Positions 612 through 46,785 of a stretch of 46,785 bases of DNA are shown here, piece by piece (position 1 is the stretch's first letter; every line of letters starts with the position of its first letter). The translations under genes were made by a program, and so were the position numbers. Source of the stretch: a virus; the IMG/VR virus record IMGVR_UViG_3300028610_000454, positions 1 to 46,785 of that record, one strand, 5' to 3'. The notes below the pieces were generated by a model. That model made no database searches. It saw only the letters and a list, made by a program, of their open reading frames with translations, and was not told the origin of the DNA.

Positions 612-640
612 TTGACAAAAATTAAAGTAACTGGTACAAT
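612..640 (+). promoter_or_regulatory. Strong sigma70-like promoter of the plus-strand operon
   Basis: -35 TTGACA (612-617), 17-nt spacer, -10 TACAAT (635-640). The predicted start near 647 places the interleaved hairpin leader (662-756) at the very 5' end of the transcript. It is divergent from the promoter at 494-522. Confidence 0.85.
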
Positions 641-661
641 ACGGTCGAAAATAAGATTATG

Positions 662-756
662 ATTACTGACCATAACAATCAAATTAAAACAATCGCCCAG
701 CCATCTTTTTGTCAATTCCTTTGGTCAGTAATTGTAAGGGATGGTTGGGCTTTTTT
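662..756 (+). promoter_or_regulatory. Leader with interleaved helices and T tract (attenuator-like)
   Basis: ATTACTGACCA (662-672) is complementary to TGGTCAGTAAT (722-732), 11 bp. GCCCAGCCATC (695-705) pairs with GATGGTTGGGC (740-750), 11 bp with one G-U, followed by six T (751-756). The second helix plus T tract looks like a terminator placed directly before the GAGG ribosome site of the gene at 768. The helices cross, so they form either a pseudoknot or alternative states. Confidence 0.75.
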
Positions 757-767
757 GAGGTGTGAAA

Positions 768-968
768 ATGGCTTATAAATTCAGCTATACGAATTATGCT
801 AAAGAGAGAACGGGTATCTTCTGTCGCAATGTAAGCACAAAGAACCCTGAATCTGCCTTGCAATTTGAAATAGAGCAAGAACGAGGTAAACGAAATTATC
901 ATTGGAGCTTTTCTTTACCTGTTTCTGAAATACCAAAGTTTCTCAAAGCAATACAAAAAGAAGACTAA
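768..968 (+). CDS. Hypothetical protein, 66 aa
   Basis: First gene of the plus operon. GAGG (757-760) sits 7 nt before the ATG at 768; an in-frame GTG at 762 is too close to it. The product is small and charged, with an aromatic segment near the C-terminus. No family recognised. Its ribosome site abuts the T tract of the leader terminator, so expression probably depends on readthrough or on refolding of that leader. Confidence 0.7.
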   Translation: MAYKFSYTNYAKERTGIFCRNVSTKNPESALQFEIEQERGKRNYHWSFSLPVSEIPKFLKAIQKED

Positions 969-1214: not shown

Positions 1215-1278
1215 GACAAAGGCACTGAGGTATTTCACCCCGCAAATTTGCCTTTGTCGCCTCGGCGGGCTTTATTTT
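1215..1278 (+). promoter_or_regulatory. Structured intergenic leader with T-rich tract
   Basis: GACAAAGGCA (1215-1224) pairs with TGCCTTTGTC (1249-1258), 10 bp perfect. CCCGC (1239-1243) can pair with GCGGG (1265-1269), and CTGAGG (1225-1230) with CCTCGG (1260-1265); both cross the first helix. TTTATTTT follows at 1271-1278, then AGGAGA and the ATG at 1293. The order of parts is the same as in the leader at 662-756. Confidence 0.55.
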
Positions 1279-3298: not shown

Positions 3299-3494
3299 AG
3301 ACGAAGTCGCTTTTGGAAATCTCCCACATGCACGGAGCGTCATCATCGCCAACGTCAATAGCGTTTACCCTGTTGGCACTGCCGTTGCCCTCACACTGAA
3401 AGACCAAGCCGTTGAAAGCCTTAACATTGTCTCTTTTGCGGAAACAAGTGAACCTTTGACCCTTTGACCCTTTGACGGTATGTATCTCCTCAAT
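3276..3494 (-). CDS. Probable gene lacking ATG (candidate AUU start), about 72 aa
   Basis: The minus frame directly after the stop of the DUF5131 gene stays open for 72 codons and looks coding: NRVNAIDVGDDDAPCMWEIS and SKSDFVFKFAPES are typical of a small phage protein. No in-frame ATG, GTG or TTG lies upstream of the conserved part. ATT at 3494 has AAAGG 6 nt upstream, so AUU initiation, or readthrough of the preceding TAA in the same frame, are options. Codons 7-14 are made of three 8-nt repeats (GTCAAAGG, 3453-3476), so copy-number change would shift the frame. Confidence 0.5.
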   Translation of the reverse strand: MEEIHTVKGSKGQRFTCFRKRDNVKAFNGLVFQCEGNGSANRVNAIDVGDDDAPCMWEISKSDFVFKFAPES

Positions 3495-4517
3495 TTATAT
3501 CCTTTCGGGATATTGCTGAATCCTCAAATCTTTTGGAAATTGTTTTATGTCTTTAATTAGAACGCGCTTTGGTGTCAACTTATTCTTCTTACCTGCTATT
3601 TTGTTATTAAATTCTAAATGGCTTCTTATATCGCTTTCCAAAGCTTCTTTTTCTGTCTCAAACAACCAACCGCCACTACCTTGTATTTGCCACAAGTGTA
3701 TTTGCTTAACAAATACAGGAATATTAGCTGCCTTGCATTGCTCGACTATCCCCCTGATGTTCTCGATAGGACAATACCGTGCGCCCGGGCCAGACTCTCC
3801 GCCGACTACTACCCAATCAATATGTTGGCCAAACTCTTCTAAATTATTATCATCTTCACGGCACGAAATCAGGGGTATTTCGCCAACATCTGCCAATAAC
3901 GGCTCGAATGAAATCCACCTTACCGCAGCGGGGATTCTCGAAAGCACTTCTGCTTTCCACATCTCATCAGGGTTTGATATGGATACGCCGAGATGGATAT
4001 TAGGAAAAGGCCAATTTATGCCAAAAAAACCTGTTATCATATCGTAGTCTTTTTCCAGAATCTTATATAATTGTGGACGCCTGTTCGATGAGTAATATTT
4101 CAACATCCGCTTAATGCGTTTCGTTAATATCAGGTATGTGTGATAGTGGCTGTGCCGAACTGCCACAATCATCGCAGCGTGTATTTTATCAATAAACTCA
4201 AACGGTATTTTCGGATGAAACAAATCGCTCATCGAGCATACGAAGATTCGGCGGGGTTCCTTCCAATGGAGAGGTTTACCAAGCTGGTCGTCTCGCAGGG
4301 CTATCTTACCACTCCATTTACCAGTATCGGGATTGATTGCATCACTATAAGCTATCCAAGTAGCTGTATTGTCCCCACCCCGGGCGCAACCCATAGCAAC
4401 TTGTCGCTTTGCCATCCTCTCAGCGTAGCAATTCAGGCACCCAGGCGAACACTTCGTGCATCCGGCTGTTACATTCCAAGTAGCATCCGTCCATTCAATT
4501 TTACTATTACTTGACAT
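3495..4517 (-). CDS. DUF5131 / phage Gp37-Gp68 family protein, 340 aa
   Basis: The N-terminus SKIEWTDATWN followed by C20, C23, C27 and C30 (GCTKCSPGCLNCYAE) is the hallmark of DUF5131, the three-Cys-motif family whose cysteines probably hold an Fe-S cluster. Other family-like blocks are RIFVCSMSDLFHPKIP and WVVVGGESGPGARYC. Full length for the family. The three-Cys-motif partner (TcmP) often encoded beside such genes is not seen here. AAGGAG lies 8 nt before ATG. The start overlaps the upstream HNH gene by 11 nt. Biochemical role not established. Confidence 0.85.
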   Translation of the reverse strand: MSSNSKIEWTDATWNVTAGCTKCSPGCLNCYAERMAKRQVAMGCARGGDNTATWIAYSDAINPDTGKWSGKIALRDDQLGKPLHWKEPRRIFVCSMSDLFHPKIPFEFIDKIHAAMIVAVRHSHYHTYLILTKRIKRMLKYYSSNRRPQLYKILEKDYDMITGFFGINWPFPNIHLGVSISNPDEMWKAEVLSRIPAAVRWISFEPLLADVGEIPLISCREDDNNLEEFGQHIDWVVVGGESGPGARYCPIENIRGIVEQCKAANIPVFVKQIHLWQIQGSGGWLFETEKEALESDIRSHLEFNNKIAGKKNKLTPKRVLIKDIKQFPKDLRIQQYPERI

Positions 4518-5976: not shown

Positions 5977-6237
5977 TTATCCTTTCTTTATTTCTTTACA
6001 TAACAAGACTTGCTTTACTTGGTTGAATATCCAGTTATAATCAATCAACTCTTTTTCTGTTGCCATTATATTTGTCTTGGCGGCATCGTAAAATTCATCT
6101 GTATCGGAAACTTTTTCCATTAGTTCAATATAGGCAAGTTTGCCTTTTATTTCTATTTCAAGATATGTTCTTATATTTTGGCAAGCCTTCCGCAACTTTT
6201 TGTTTTCCTCTTCCAACGCCTTAAATTCTTCACTCAT
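5977..6237 (-). CDS. Coiled-coil hypothetical protein, 86 aa
   Basis: Begins MSEEFKALEEENKKLRKACQ, a leucine-zipper-like coiled coil, followed by a helical body. The start overlaps the 3' end of the methyltransferase gene as ATGA, so it is translationally coupled. Confidence 0.7.
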   Translation of the reverse strand: MSEEFKALEEENKKLRKACQNIRTYLEIEIKGKLAYIELMEKVSDTDEFYDAAKTNIMATEKELIDYNWIFNQVKQVLLCKEIKKG

Positions 6238-6908
6238 TTTGGGGACTCCATTGGAAATAACGGTTGTTGACCTTGTTTCTGTTCTTTTACGGGAACACCG
6301 GTATCGACAGCCTCAAGCCTCTGGCGGGCTATCTCACAGTATTTCTCGGATATGTCTATGCCGATGTAACGCCTGCCTAACATCTTGGCTGCTACGCAAG
6401 TTGTACCAGAGCCACAGAAGGGGTCGAGAATGATGTCATTGGGGTCTGATGCTCGCTCAATTAGCCATAATGCCCAATGGACAGGCTTTGGACAGGGATG
6501 CCCATTGCTGAAATCGGTTGGTGTACATTGAAAAAAGTCGTGCATATATAGTTGGTTTTTATTCCTGCCATATACAAGAAGGGGCTCCCAATCATTAAAG
6601 CCGATGTAGCCCGAGCATCCCGTACTGCCTTTATGCCAACAAACAAGCCAGTCCGGTGGCAATGCTTTATATATCCAAGATAGACGGTTAATTTGACAGG
6701 ATGGCATTATAGTCATACGCCCAACTCGATTCATTTCCGGCACAGCATCCATAAACATATCAAACCAATTTTGCTCTGTGTCATCGTAAATATCATAATC
6801 CACACCTACTCCATACGGCGGGTCAGTCAACACCAAATCCACACAGTTATCCAGCCAGTCTTTCATAACCTTTAAGCAGTCGCCTTGTATGATGGTATTT
6901 ACTTGCAT
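6234..6908 (-). CDS. DNA adenine/cytosine-N4 methyltransferase, beta-type, 224 aa
   Basis: Catalytic motif DPPY at residues 29-32 (LVLTDPPYG), with the AdoMet-binding DPFCGSGTT at 162-170 and the following helix RRYIGIDISEKYCEIARQRL. Motif IV before motif I is the beta-class order. There is no restriction partner, so it is an orphan methylase that may protect phage DNA from host restriction or mark it for replication or packaging. It overlaps the upstream gene by 10 nt. Length is normal for compact phage methylases. Confidence 0.92.
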   Translation of the reverse strand: MQVNTIIQGDCLKVMKDWLDNCVDLVLTDPPYGVGVDYDIYDDTEQNWFDMFMDAVPEMNRVGRMTIMPSCQINRLSWIYKALPPDWLVCWHKGSTGCSGYIGFNDWEPLLVYGRNKNQLYMHDFFQCTPTDFSNGHPCPKPVHWALWLIERASDPNDIILDPFCGSGTTCVAAKMLGRRYIGIDISEKYCEIARQRLEAVDTGVPVKEQKQGQQPLFPMESPK

Positions 6909-12877: not shown

Positions 12878-13300
12878 TTAGTTCCAAGTTTGATGTTTTT
12901 CTGCGATATGCTCTAATCCGTCATATTCTTCAACTTGCCAATCTATATTGTCAGGTATCTCTATAATTTTAAGGGAAGCACAATGTCCATTTGCTTTTGC
13001 TTTGAGTAGTTTGATTGTTTCAATTAAAGCAGTGTCAGTACGCTCAATATCACTTGGTGAGAAATAGCTATCTTCCTCGTAGTATTTACCATCCCTGAGA
13101 GGTTTTTTGGAGTAATGGATAACAAATACATCTTCTGTGCCATCGTAGGAAACTTTGGGTGCGTGGAAGTCTAAATTACCCGCTTCATTTCTTCCGTCAA
13201 CAAAGGCGTAGAGCTTTATGCCTTTTATCTCTGCGTATTTCATTACGCCTTTATAACTTAAGCCAAAACCGCCAAATTTATCATTTATAACAATATTCAT
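12878..13300 (-). CDS. Phage hypothetical protein, 140 aa
   Basis: Begins MNIVINDKFGGFGLSYKG and ends EEYDGLEHIAEKHQTW, a pattern recurrent in phage proteins of unknown function. AAAGGAAAATGAATA precedes the ATG. A structured leader with a GC-rich closing stem lies immediately upstream. Confidence 0.78.
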   Translation of the reverse strand: MNIVINDKFGGFGLSYKGVMKYAEIKGIKLYAFVDGRNEAGNLDFHAPKVSYDGTEDVFVIHYSKKPLRDGKYYEEDSYFSPSDIERTDTALIETIKLLKAKANGHCASLKIIEIPDNIDWQVEEYDGLEHIAEKHQTWN

Positions 13301-13408: not shown

Positions 13409-13909
13409 TCAAGCTATTTTCCTTTCACTATTCCTATGACAATCTATACAAACGGGAGCAACAGCAAACCAAAATTCAGGCTCGTATCCCAAATAATGAT
13501 GGTATTCTTTGGCTGGCTTTGGGCAGTAACGACAAAGCAATAATTTGGGCGAAACCAATTTGCCATCACGGATAGCATTGTTTATAACATGCCTGGCCTT
13601 AATTCGATTGAGATTGCGGGCAAGGTAACGCTTTTCCGTTGCTTTCCCTTTTTCACTTCGTTTGTACCGCTTCCTTGCATTTTTCCCTTTTTCGCTTTGC
13701 TGATGACGTTTTATTGCAATTTTGCCTTTCTTGCTTTGAAAATAATGTTTTCTCATGGCTTTGCCATGTTCAGTTTGTCGATATTCACCTTCGTAAATTT
13801 TCTTGCAAGATTTACAATATCCTCGAAACCCATCTTTATTTTGTTTGTCTATGTTAAATTCAGATATTGGCTTGATTGTTTTGCATTTACTACATTTTTT
13901 CGTTTTCAT
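13409..13909 (-). CDS. HNH homing-type endonuclease with 13-residue repeats, 166 aa
   Basis: N-terminal zinc knuckles (KKCSKCKTIKPISEFN, YCKSCKK), then about four 13-residue repeats of the form SEKGKxxxKRYxx, then a C-terminal HNH core (LLCRYCPKPAKEYHHYLGY, VAPVCIDCHR). It is related to the HNH protein at 38954-39424. The start at MKTKKC is chosen because GGAGATAAA precedes it. The frame is open 36 codons further up, but that part is the palindromic leader. Its ribosome site is inside a 13-bp perfect helix. Confidence 0.85.
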   Translation of the reverse strand: MKTKKCSKCKTIKPISEFNIDKQNKDGFRGYCKSCKKIYEGEYRQTEHGKAMRKHYFQSKKGKIAIKRHQQSEKGKNARKRYKRSEKGKATEKRYLARNLNRIKARHVINNAIRDGKLVSPKLLLCRYCPKPAKEYHHYLGYEPEFWFAVAPVCIDCHRNSERKIA

Positions 13910-13912
13910 TTT

Positions 13913-14040
13913 ATCTCCAATAAAACCAGCCGAAGCTGGTACGCAGATTGAGCTTCCGCCCGAAGTGCCTTCGGCTGGCCGTGTTAAAGTGCTTTGTTGT
14001 TCTGCGTACCATTCCATAAGTGTAACCTTTTATTGGAGAT
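13913..14040 (-). promoter_or_regulatory. Nested, interleaved palindromic leader sequestering the HNH ribosome site
   Basis: Outer helix ATCTCCAATAAAA (14040-14028 on minus) with TTTTATTGGAGAT (13925-13913), 13 bp perfect, includes the GGAG site of the HNH gene. Inside, GGTACGCAGA/TCTGCGTACC (14010-14001 with 13947-13938) and CCAGCCGAAG/CTTCGGCTGG (13978-13969 with 13935-13926), 10 bp each, cross one another. Competing local hairpins are CCAGC-TTCG-GCTGG and CCGAAG-GCA-CTTCGG. On the minus strand only 2 nt separate the last arms, so mutually exclusive states are more likely than one full pseudoknot. Confidence 0.8.
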
Positions 14041-14049
14041 TGTCAAATA

Positions 14050-15971: not shown

Positions 15972-16143
15972 CAGAGACGGGCAGGATACCTTTCAGTAGA
16001 GCCTACCGTTAGCGTGAGCGGGTGGGATTTGAACCCGAATATGCACTATTCCACCAGAATAGAAAATACATACTCTACACGACCTCCAGCTTTCTGGGCT
16101 GGCGAGCTACCATACTGCTCTACCGCCCACGCCGCCGTCTCTG
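15972..16143 (-). ncRNA. tRNA-like cloverleaf with hairpin inserted in the T arm, in an mRNA leader
   Basis: On minus: outer stem CAGAGACGG/CCGTCTCTG (16143-16135 with 15980-15972), then acceptor-like GCGTGGGCGG/CCGCTCACGC (16132-16123 with 16021-16012, 10 bp, one G-U). TA is followed by D arm GAGC-AGTATGGTA-GCTC, anticodon-like arm CCAGC-CCAGAAA-GCTGG (AGA, with C instead of T at position 33), AGGTC, and T loop GGG-TTCAAAT-CCCAC. The T-stem 5' strand is interrupted by a 39-nt hairpin (16075-16037). No CCA is encoded. A functional tRNA is unlikely; a tRNA mimic or decayed tRNA in the leader of the gene at 15945 fits better. Confidence 0.65.
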
Positions 16144-16146
16144 TAT

Positions 16147-16506
16147 TTAGTTGTCAAGAGAGCTACTTAGTCGGCTTGTATTGCAGGTCATTATCCACAA
16201 TGCCTTGCCATATTTCGGGCGTGTAATCAAAAGCCCTTTCGTCTGGCATCCATTTGTAAGAAATGCTATTGCCATTTTTCTTGTATCATTCTCATTTTTG
16301 GCCTCAAAACCGATAGGCAATGAGGTATCTTCTTCGGATCGCCATTTGTATTTTGATAATCGAGGATAATCTTCAGCATCGACAATTGCAAACTTGCCTT
16401 GTGTGAGTGGAATAAACCGGCAGAAGGGCGCAGAGTCAGCCGAAGAAGTTGATATACGCCCCCTGACGGTTATGTGCCGTTGATTTGGTTTTTTGGGTGG
16501 TATCAT
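16147..16506 (-). CDS. HNH/AP2-type homing endonuclease fragment lacking the HNH core, 119 aa
   Basis: Residues about 32-56 (FIPLTQGKFAIVDAEDYPRL, SKYKWR) are the conserved N-terminal block of phage HNH endonucleases with AP2-like domains. The expected HNH catalytic part is missing, and the C-terminal third is unrelated. It looks truncated or diverged. Its start codon lies in a 12-bp perfect helix (16509-16520 with 16433-16444). First gene after the promoter at 16559-16587. Confidence 0.6.
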   Translation of the reverse strand: MIPPKKPNQRHITVRGRISTSSADSAPFCRFIPLTQGKFAIVDAEDYPRLSKYKWRSEEDTSLPIGFEAKNENDTRKMAIAFLTNGCQTKGLLITRPKYGKALWIMTCNTSRLSSSLDN

Positions 16507-16520
16507 TTTTCGGCTGACTC
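16433..16520 (-). promoter_or_regulatory. Long hairpin enclosing the start of the HNH-fragment gene
   Basis: On minus GAGTCAGCCGAA (16520-16509) pairs perfectly with TTCGGCTGACTC (16444-16433). Nested within are TGATA/TATCA, CCxCC/GGGGG and ACGG/CCGT pairs. The only ribosome-site-like GGAG and the ATG at 16506 fall inside the stem, so translation should be repressed while it is folded. Confidence 0.65.
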
Positions 16521-16558
16521 CACTGTACTATTAACTTGTACTACTTTACTATCGACAC

Positions 16559-46362: not shown

Positions 46363-46641
46363 ATCTTAGAGGCAGGGCTTATACTGAATAAAACCCTTTG
46401 ATAAGATTAAAACAGTTTAAGTATTCTTTGATAGTAGAGATAAGCAAAGGTTTTTATATCATAACTTCGTATTTCTTACCAAATCGGCTTATCTCAACAA
46501 CGGAATAGAAGTCGTCTAACAGCTTCTTAATTAGCCTTGAGAGGTTCGCTGTGTTCGTTAGACGGCTAATATTCCGTTGTTGTCCTTCGCCCCTGACTGT
46601 TGGCAGGGCTCCTGCGTGAAGGCTATTCGTCCGATGGGTTA
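46363..46641 (-). promoter_or_regulatory. Gene-free structured leader/control segment
   Basis: No gene seen. Plus-strand coordinates: CAACAACGGAATA (46495-46507) pairs with TATTCCGTTGTTG (46570-46582), 13 bp. Inside it CGTCTAAC/GTTAGACG (46513-46520 with 46557-46564) crosses ATTAGC/GCTAAT (46530-46535 with 46565-46570). GAGATAAGC (46437-46445) pairs with GCTTATCTC (46487-46495). On minus, loop lengths (0, 21, 9 nt) allow an H-type pseudoknot with slight fraying. Likely the 5' leader of the operon starting at 46362. No clear promoter found. Confidence 0.5.
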
Positions 46642-46785
46642 CTCTTTTTCGCTCTACGTTGTCTATAAAAAAACAAAGGCCAGCACAACAACCTTTGCAA
46701 AAAAGAGTGGTGCTGACCTTGTTCGTAATAGCAGAGACAGGAGTCGAACCTGTAATCTCCTGCTTATGAGGCAGGCAAGTTACCA
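46642..46785. repeat. Right copy of 144-bp terminal direct repeat
   Basis: Exact copy of bases 1-144. It cuts the tRNA gene short at its 5' end (minus strand), so the complete tRNA is read only at the left end. Joining the ends gives a non-redundant length of 46641 bp. Confidence 0.95.

Follow-up and report, generated by a model that had tools for sequence, protein, structure and literature searches.

What does a long and elaborately paired RNA do immediately ahead of an endonuclease gene in an uncultured tailed phage? The question is raised by a viral IMG/VR record of 46,785 bases, which we analyzed over its whole length (the window). The terminase of this phage is at most about 24% identical to those of the best-covered known phages, placing it at a distance from sequenced ones. 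On the minus strand, ORF 14463-14050 ends ahead of the leader and the endonuclease gene at 13909-13409 follows the leader. An earlier note on this DNA had drawn its limits at 13895-14040. The element itself is indeed there, but it runs from 14040 to 13913 on the minus strand (128 nt), and thus the 13895 limit reaches into coding sequence. On balance, we think it somewhat probable that this is a two-layer regulatory leader, in which a lock of the T4 type is combined with a pseudoknot/terminator attenuator to control a phage HNH-type endonuclease gene. The features on which this reading draws are as follows.

13409-13909, minus strand: HNH-type endonuclease gene, 166 aa, with an N-terminal CxxC zinc-finger motif (phrog_2340 and alignment of relatives)
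13915-13918, minus strand: Shine-Dalgarno GGAG of the nuclease gene
14041-14046, minus strand: -35-like hexamer TTGACA, perfect (10/12 promoter matches)
14019-14024, minus strand: -10-like hexamer TACACT, spacer 16, predicted +1 at about 14012
14028-14040, minus strand: outer helix 5' arm ATCTCCAATAAAA, within the promoter spacer
13913-13925, minus strand: outer helix 3' arm TTTTATTGGAGAT, containing the U tract and ribosome site
14001-14011, minus strand: helix A 5' strand TGGTACGCAGA
13937-13947, minus strand: helix A 3' strand TCTGCGTACCA
13979-14000, minus strand: loop L1, sequence ACAACAAAGCACTTTAACACGG
13969-13978, minus strand: helix B 5' strand CCAGCCGAAG
13926-13935, minus strand: helix B 3' strand CTTCGGCTGG
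13960-13974, minus strand: competing hairpin CCGAAG-GCA-CUUCGG
13919-13940, minus strand: terminator-like hairpin ACCAGC-UUCG-GCUGGU, then the U-rich tract UUUUAUU

The 166-aa protein matches the phrog_2340 endonuclease in a PHROG search (E 3e-22), a family that includes homing enzymes, and its relatives in GAP31 and Silvergun carry the annotation endonuclease. Because searches of Pfam and NCBIfam yield no family at cut-off, the HNH label stands on the PHROG match together with the His/Cys pattern. The gene product is a phage endonuclease of the HNH type and probably a homing enzyme, with the homing function read off the family. The protein and its relatives start alike in the alignment, at the CxxC motif, and we therefore place the gene start at 13909 with its GGAG at 13918-13915. 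An in-frame ATG at 14017 opens a 202-aa ORF that runs through the leader element. We rejected the leader as an N-terminal extension from this ATG, as the extension has no relatives and the homologs start at 13909. Further genes of the HNH or endonuclease VII type are carried by the phage at 4507-5073, 7159-7539, 26871-27386 and 38954-39424 on the minus strand.

The leader RNA is a non-random structure. Its folding as a 133-nt segment gives z = -4.8, with none of 200 shuffles equally stable. The outer helix ATCTCCAATAAAA/TTTTATTGGAGAT is a perfect 13 bp, helix A (TGGTACGCAGA/TCTGCGTACCA) a perfect 11 bp, and helix B (CCAGCCGAAG/CTTCGGCTGG) a perfect 10 bp, or 12 when G-U pairs are counted. An earlier tally of 13, 10 and 10 bp was correct for the outer helix and helix B and one pair short for helix A. 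When the window was dinucleotide-shuffled 60 times, no 140-nt stretch contained more than two perfect helices of 10 bp or longer, compared with three here, and in 56 of the shuffles no stretch reached even two. Likewise, 3000 shuffles of the 175 nt upstream yielded no perfect complement to all 13 nt of the ribosome-site segment, the longest there being 11. As the earlier note had claimed, two helices cross (A-B-A'-B', on the minus strand), and they compete with UUCG and CCGAAG hairpins, which correspond to CCAGC-UUCG-GCUGG-UUUUAUU (13939-13919) and CCGAAG-GCA-CUUCGG (13974-13960). Only 1 nt separates A' from B', and B' directly adjoins the 3' arm of the outer helix. When crossed A-B-A'-B' arrangements are ranked, this element is the best on the minus strand of the window.

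Other structured sites were also seen in the window. At 46495-46582 on the plus strand, beside a tRNA at 46729-46785 (minus strand), a perfect 13-bp outer helix CAACAACGGAATA/TATTCCGTTGTTG surrounds a core in which CGTCTAAC/GTTAGACG and ATTAGCC/GGCTAAT cross with adjacent 3' strands; no gene follows directly on the same strand, and there is no Rfam match at E 5. At 16433-16523 on the minus strand, the stem GAGTCAGCCGAA/TTCGGCTGACTC (12 bp perfect, 15 with neighbours; z = -4.7) spans the start of ORF 16506-16147 and has CAGCCGAAG in common with the nuclease leader. Separately, 16014-16129 (minus strand) gives an Rfam tRNA match of 35.6 bits in which about 44 additional bases separate the anticodon arm from the T arm, and ARAGORN makes no tRNA call there.

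How the outer helix might act depends on where transcription begins. In RNA that reads through from upstream genes, the 13-bp helix would pair the ribosome site and shut translation. Consistent with this proposal, folding of read-through RNA gives GGAG an unpaired probability of 0.00-0.02 in five of six transcripts and of 0.24-0.28 in the sixth. The 5' arm sits between the -35 and -10 hexamers of the promoter-like site, and transcripts from this promoter would thus lack the arm. Such RNAs would start past it and form no outer helix, such that the ribosome site would be open; in their predicted folds, most GGAG bases are unpaired with probabilities of about 0.5-0.99, the last G being at about 0.25 in the shorter version. 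The earlier proposal that the outer helix hides the GGAG is therefore borne out in silico, specifically for read-through RNA. The promoter itself is a prediction: 19 of 1000 shuffles yield a site as good as TTGACA-N16-TACACT, promoter-like matches occur at 12 per 5.5 kb and so are not rare, and the true promoters of this phage may differ.

This arrangement has known counterparts. In the late transcripts of I-TevI, segB and mobE, the inhibitory structure is missing its 5' portion (PMC2988022, PMC3014915). As in T4 I-TevI and segB and in Aeh1 mobE (HNH), the gene encodes an endonuclease and the ribosome site is predicted to pair with a segment just upstream; the promoter-like site is placed such that the gene's own transcripts would likewise lack that segment. 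The parallel with I-TevI drawn in the earlier note is supported in silico and appears closer than was claimed, because the promoter-like site would leave the 5' arm to read-through RNA only. There are also differences. The T4-type structures are plain local hairpins, whereas here 102 nt separate the two arms, with a crossed-helix core and a terminator-like stem between them, and the promoter is sigma-70-like rather than a T4 late promoter. The T4 segB leader, folded as a positive control, was predicted to have its ribosome site paired in a simple hairpin without strong crossing. We conclude that the outer-helix lock is strongly supported in silico and that it represents a credible new instance of a strategy already described.

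The same 13-bp inverted repeat could instead be a DNA feature, serving as a paired operator at the promoter and ribosome site or marking both ends of a small insertion. One arm does lie in the promoter spacer and the other over the start region, and I-TevI autorepresses its own promoter (PMC2988022), which offers a parallel for the operator reading. However, no target-site duplication is visible at the repeat ends, the repeat is single-copy in the record, and its register over GGAG matches precisely that expected for a ribosome-site lock. We consider a DNA role quite improbable.

With the lock assigned to read-through RNA, what remains is the knotted core. Its strong helices cross, their 3' strands are adjacent, and they are followed by the U tract, the ribosome site and the start codon. 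A terminator-like site is called at 13940-13925 (6 pairs, then TTTATT), with a short stem of 5-6 bp and an interrupted U tract. For RNA from its own promoter, the nested optimum (helix A plus the CCGAAG hairpin) is computed at -35.3 kcal/mol, compared with -31.8 for the conformer with the B hairpin and -30.6 for the UUCG terminator conformer. The stack energies of A and B sum to -45.5 kcal/mol before loop and pseudoknot penalties, and hence the pseudoknot is plausibly competitive. The earlier suggestion of a bistable core that may be a switch therefore holds on paper as to bistability, with three predicted conformers within about 5 kcal/mol. Because the core stands directly before the U tract, it most likely chooses between termination and read-through. 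Specifically, either the A-B-A'-B' pseudoknot or the UUCG hairpin before the U tract would act as an attenuator in own-promoter RNA, and the terminator-embedded pseudoknot would limit the nuclease further until a phage or host factor, or the state of the polymerase, favors read-through. Thus, attenuation of own-promoter RNA is the most likely role of a core whose structure is well supported and whose function we infer.

If such cores have a use beyond this gene, they might recur elsewhere. Our descriptor combined an A-B-A'-B' crossing, adjacent 3' strands, two helices of at least 14 kcal/mol each, a U tract, and a ribosome site with start codon. The strict descriptor finds exactly two matches in the window, the nuclease leader and a second site at 657-750 on the plus strand, the top-ranked A-B-A'-B' arrangement of that strand; 90 shuffles lead one to expect 0.011 per strand.

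612-640, plus strand: promoter-like TTGACA-N17-TACAAT before the sibling leader (1/1000 shuffles as good)
657-750, plus strand: sibling leader, helix A 657-672/722-737 and helix B 695-709/736-750, crossing, 3' strands contiguous
751-770, plus strand: U6 tract, GAGG and ATG (768) of the small ORF 768-968

Among the other loci compared, one further match precedes a real gene start, in an unrelated phage (L013), where the gene resembles replication initiation proteins. The succession that leads from a promoter-like site through crossed strong helices and a U tract to the ribosome site and start codon is thus seen again at 612-770 on the plus strand and in L013. A promoter-like site lies close upstream of helix A in all three leaders, with 19, 1 and 5 per 1000 shuffles as good (5 for L013). 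The thresholds were chosen after the first two window matches had been seen, and so L013 and the control leaders form the independent part of the evidence. As controls we took 118 bacterial leaders whose sole selection criteria were promoter, spacing, U tract and GGAGG; no crossing in them reaches 15 kcal/mol in both helices. In phage and bacterial DNA totaling 1.38 Mb, the other matches below 52% GC with a ribosome site are weaker, except for a repeat-like one (L136). This bacterial contig has, at 3388-3504 on the plus strand, very strong crossed helices on a AGTGAATAGT-like tandem repeat, with a U-rich tract and ribosome site and preceded by a tRNA-like 3' end. A further descriptor match in L002-L004 combines a poor U tract with a loop of 73 nt.

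These comparisons bear on a plainer account, in which an ordinary intrinsic terminator of the upstream gene stands beside a T4-type ribosome-site hairpin and the crossing of helices is functionless. Units of promoter, leader, terminator and ribosome site are common, a stem is present at the U tract in 74 of the 118 controls, and several weaker crossings in the window consist of one strong stem with a moderate or short helix. Two helices each below -20 kcal/mol with adjacent 3' strands, however, are found in the window only here and at +657, against an expectation of 0.011 per strand (90 shuffles) and none among the 118 controls. We regard this account as rather unlikely. The weaker crossed-helix leaders are at 13401-13316, 7645-7561 and 14505-14419 (minus strand) and 1215-1265 (plus strand), directly preceding genes 13300, 7539 (an HNH-like protein), 14376 and 1293, respectively. 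We did not accept them as members, given their one strong and one moderate stem; no promoter-like site before them is significant versus shuffles.

Alternatively, the core might be a small RNA gene, comprising a promoter, a pseudoknotted RNA of about 90 nt and a terminator, whose product acts in trans and which abuts the nuclease ribosome site by chance. The promoter-like site and U tract do delimit a compact unit of 90-105 nt, and T4 also makes small stable RNAs near segB. On the other hand, in all three members the U tract leads straight into a ribosome site and start codon, which fits a cis leader better, even if this is only a partial argument because that placement is part of the descriptor, and the members have no common sequence able to pair with a shared target. 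We give this explanation a low probability.

Could the core instead sense a ligand or protein as a riboswitch-like RNA of a new class, with two members in the window and one in L013? A common architecture before three unrelated genes with no Rfam match at gathering score is what such a class might look like, and the HMP-PP riboswitch, in which a pseudoknot and a terminator share one short leader, is a precedent for a terminator-embedded pseudoknot aptamer (PMC6478431). As in that thiS riboswitch, the pseudoknot and intrinsic terminator are alternative folds with a U tract before the gene, but here there is no Rfam match, no conserved aptamer bases, and a gene unrelated to thiamin. Moreover, the members lack the conserved bases that a ligand pocket would need: pairwise sequence similarity among the three leaders is no better than among shuffles. 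This absence of shared sequence disfavors a classical ligand pocket, and the candidate triggers are then timing, a protein or the polymerase state. A sensing RNA of this kind thus seems distinctly unlikely.

Attenuation by the core remains the reading we prefer, and the proposed class behind it is more tentative. It is possible, though doubtful, that the three leaders represent an undescribed class of phage leader RNA. In such a class, two strong helices that cross, their 3' strands side by side, would stand between a promoter and a U tract followed by a ribosome site; a pseudoknot/terminator choice would control unrelated genes, and the endonuclease gene would have added a T4-type lock. The outer helix was sought in the sibling leaders and not found, and hence the lock seems peculiar to the nuclease gene. 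Each leader also carries an ATG close to or at the 5' end of helix A (window 14017, minus strand; window 659, plus strand; L013 432, minus strand), and the frame that this ATG opens spans the leader. An upstream ORF was rejected as a driver of attenuation in all three, as the ATG of the nuclease leader precedes the predicted transcript start.

Searches of viral contigs, phages and plasmids returned no convincing sequence homolog of the element. A search for close relatives of the nuclease gave three viral contigs at 32% identity and two known phages, with none in genome contigs; overall, relatives are only about 30-35% identical. The neighboring gene 12878-13300 and the methylase 6234-6908, used as hooks, uncovered no syntenic relatives. 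The earlier note had asked for a similar element at homologous loci. On this point the picture is mixed: neither a sequence homolog of the element nor a close homolog of the gene was recovered, and inspection of the leaders of the two known-phage relatives showed no such element, whereas the architecture recurs at another gene of the window and in L013. Just upstream of the start of a 32%-identical relative (L002, 4930-4990, plus strand), GCCGGGG/CCCCGGC and TGGCGG/CCGCCA form small crossed helices. All copies of the L013-type leader (L013, L014, L021-L023) are identical, and thus covariation through this gene offered no variation; six regions with known-phage relatives of the L013 gene contained no qualifying leader.

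Nor does the leader fall into a described family. An Rfam covariance-model search of the leader gave no family, and its only match, to an unrelated CRISPR repeat model at E 0.2, was taken as chance, as was a sau-5949 match on 701-756 of the plus strand (E 0.004, about half the gathering score). The HEARO/OMEGA RNAs of IscB are similar in that a structured RNA lies upstream of an HNH-containing gene, but there is no Rfam match even at E 5 and the protein is a 166-aa PHROG 2340 endonuclease, not IscB. Membership among the RNAs of IscB or TnpB is thus unsupported by either an RNA match or an IscB/TnpB effector. The leader of T4 gene 32 likewise places a 5' pseudoknot in a phage leader; it is a short, classical pseudoknot bound by gp32, with no known terminator or outer lock. 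The logic of the lock is already known, and what may be new is the core, with its strong crossed helices and U tract. This predicted fold is a candidate for a new leader architecture.

If the lock operates as proposed, then an unrelated, uncultured phage has reached the T4 way of hiding the ribosome site of a selfish nuclease in read-through messages, and such a translational lock can be combined with a second gate built on a pseudoknot. Should the core prove to be a class of its own, then a structural signature of crossed strong helices, a U tract and a ribosome site would find phage attenuators that have no conserved sequence, and attenuators of this kind would escape RNA family methods that are based on sequence.
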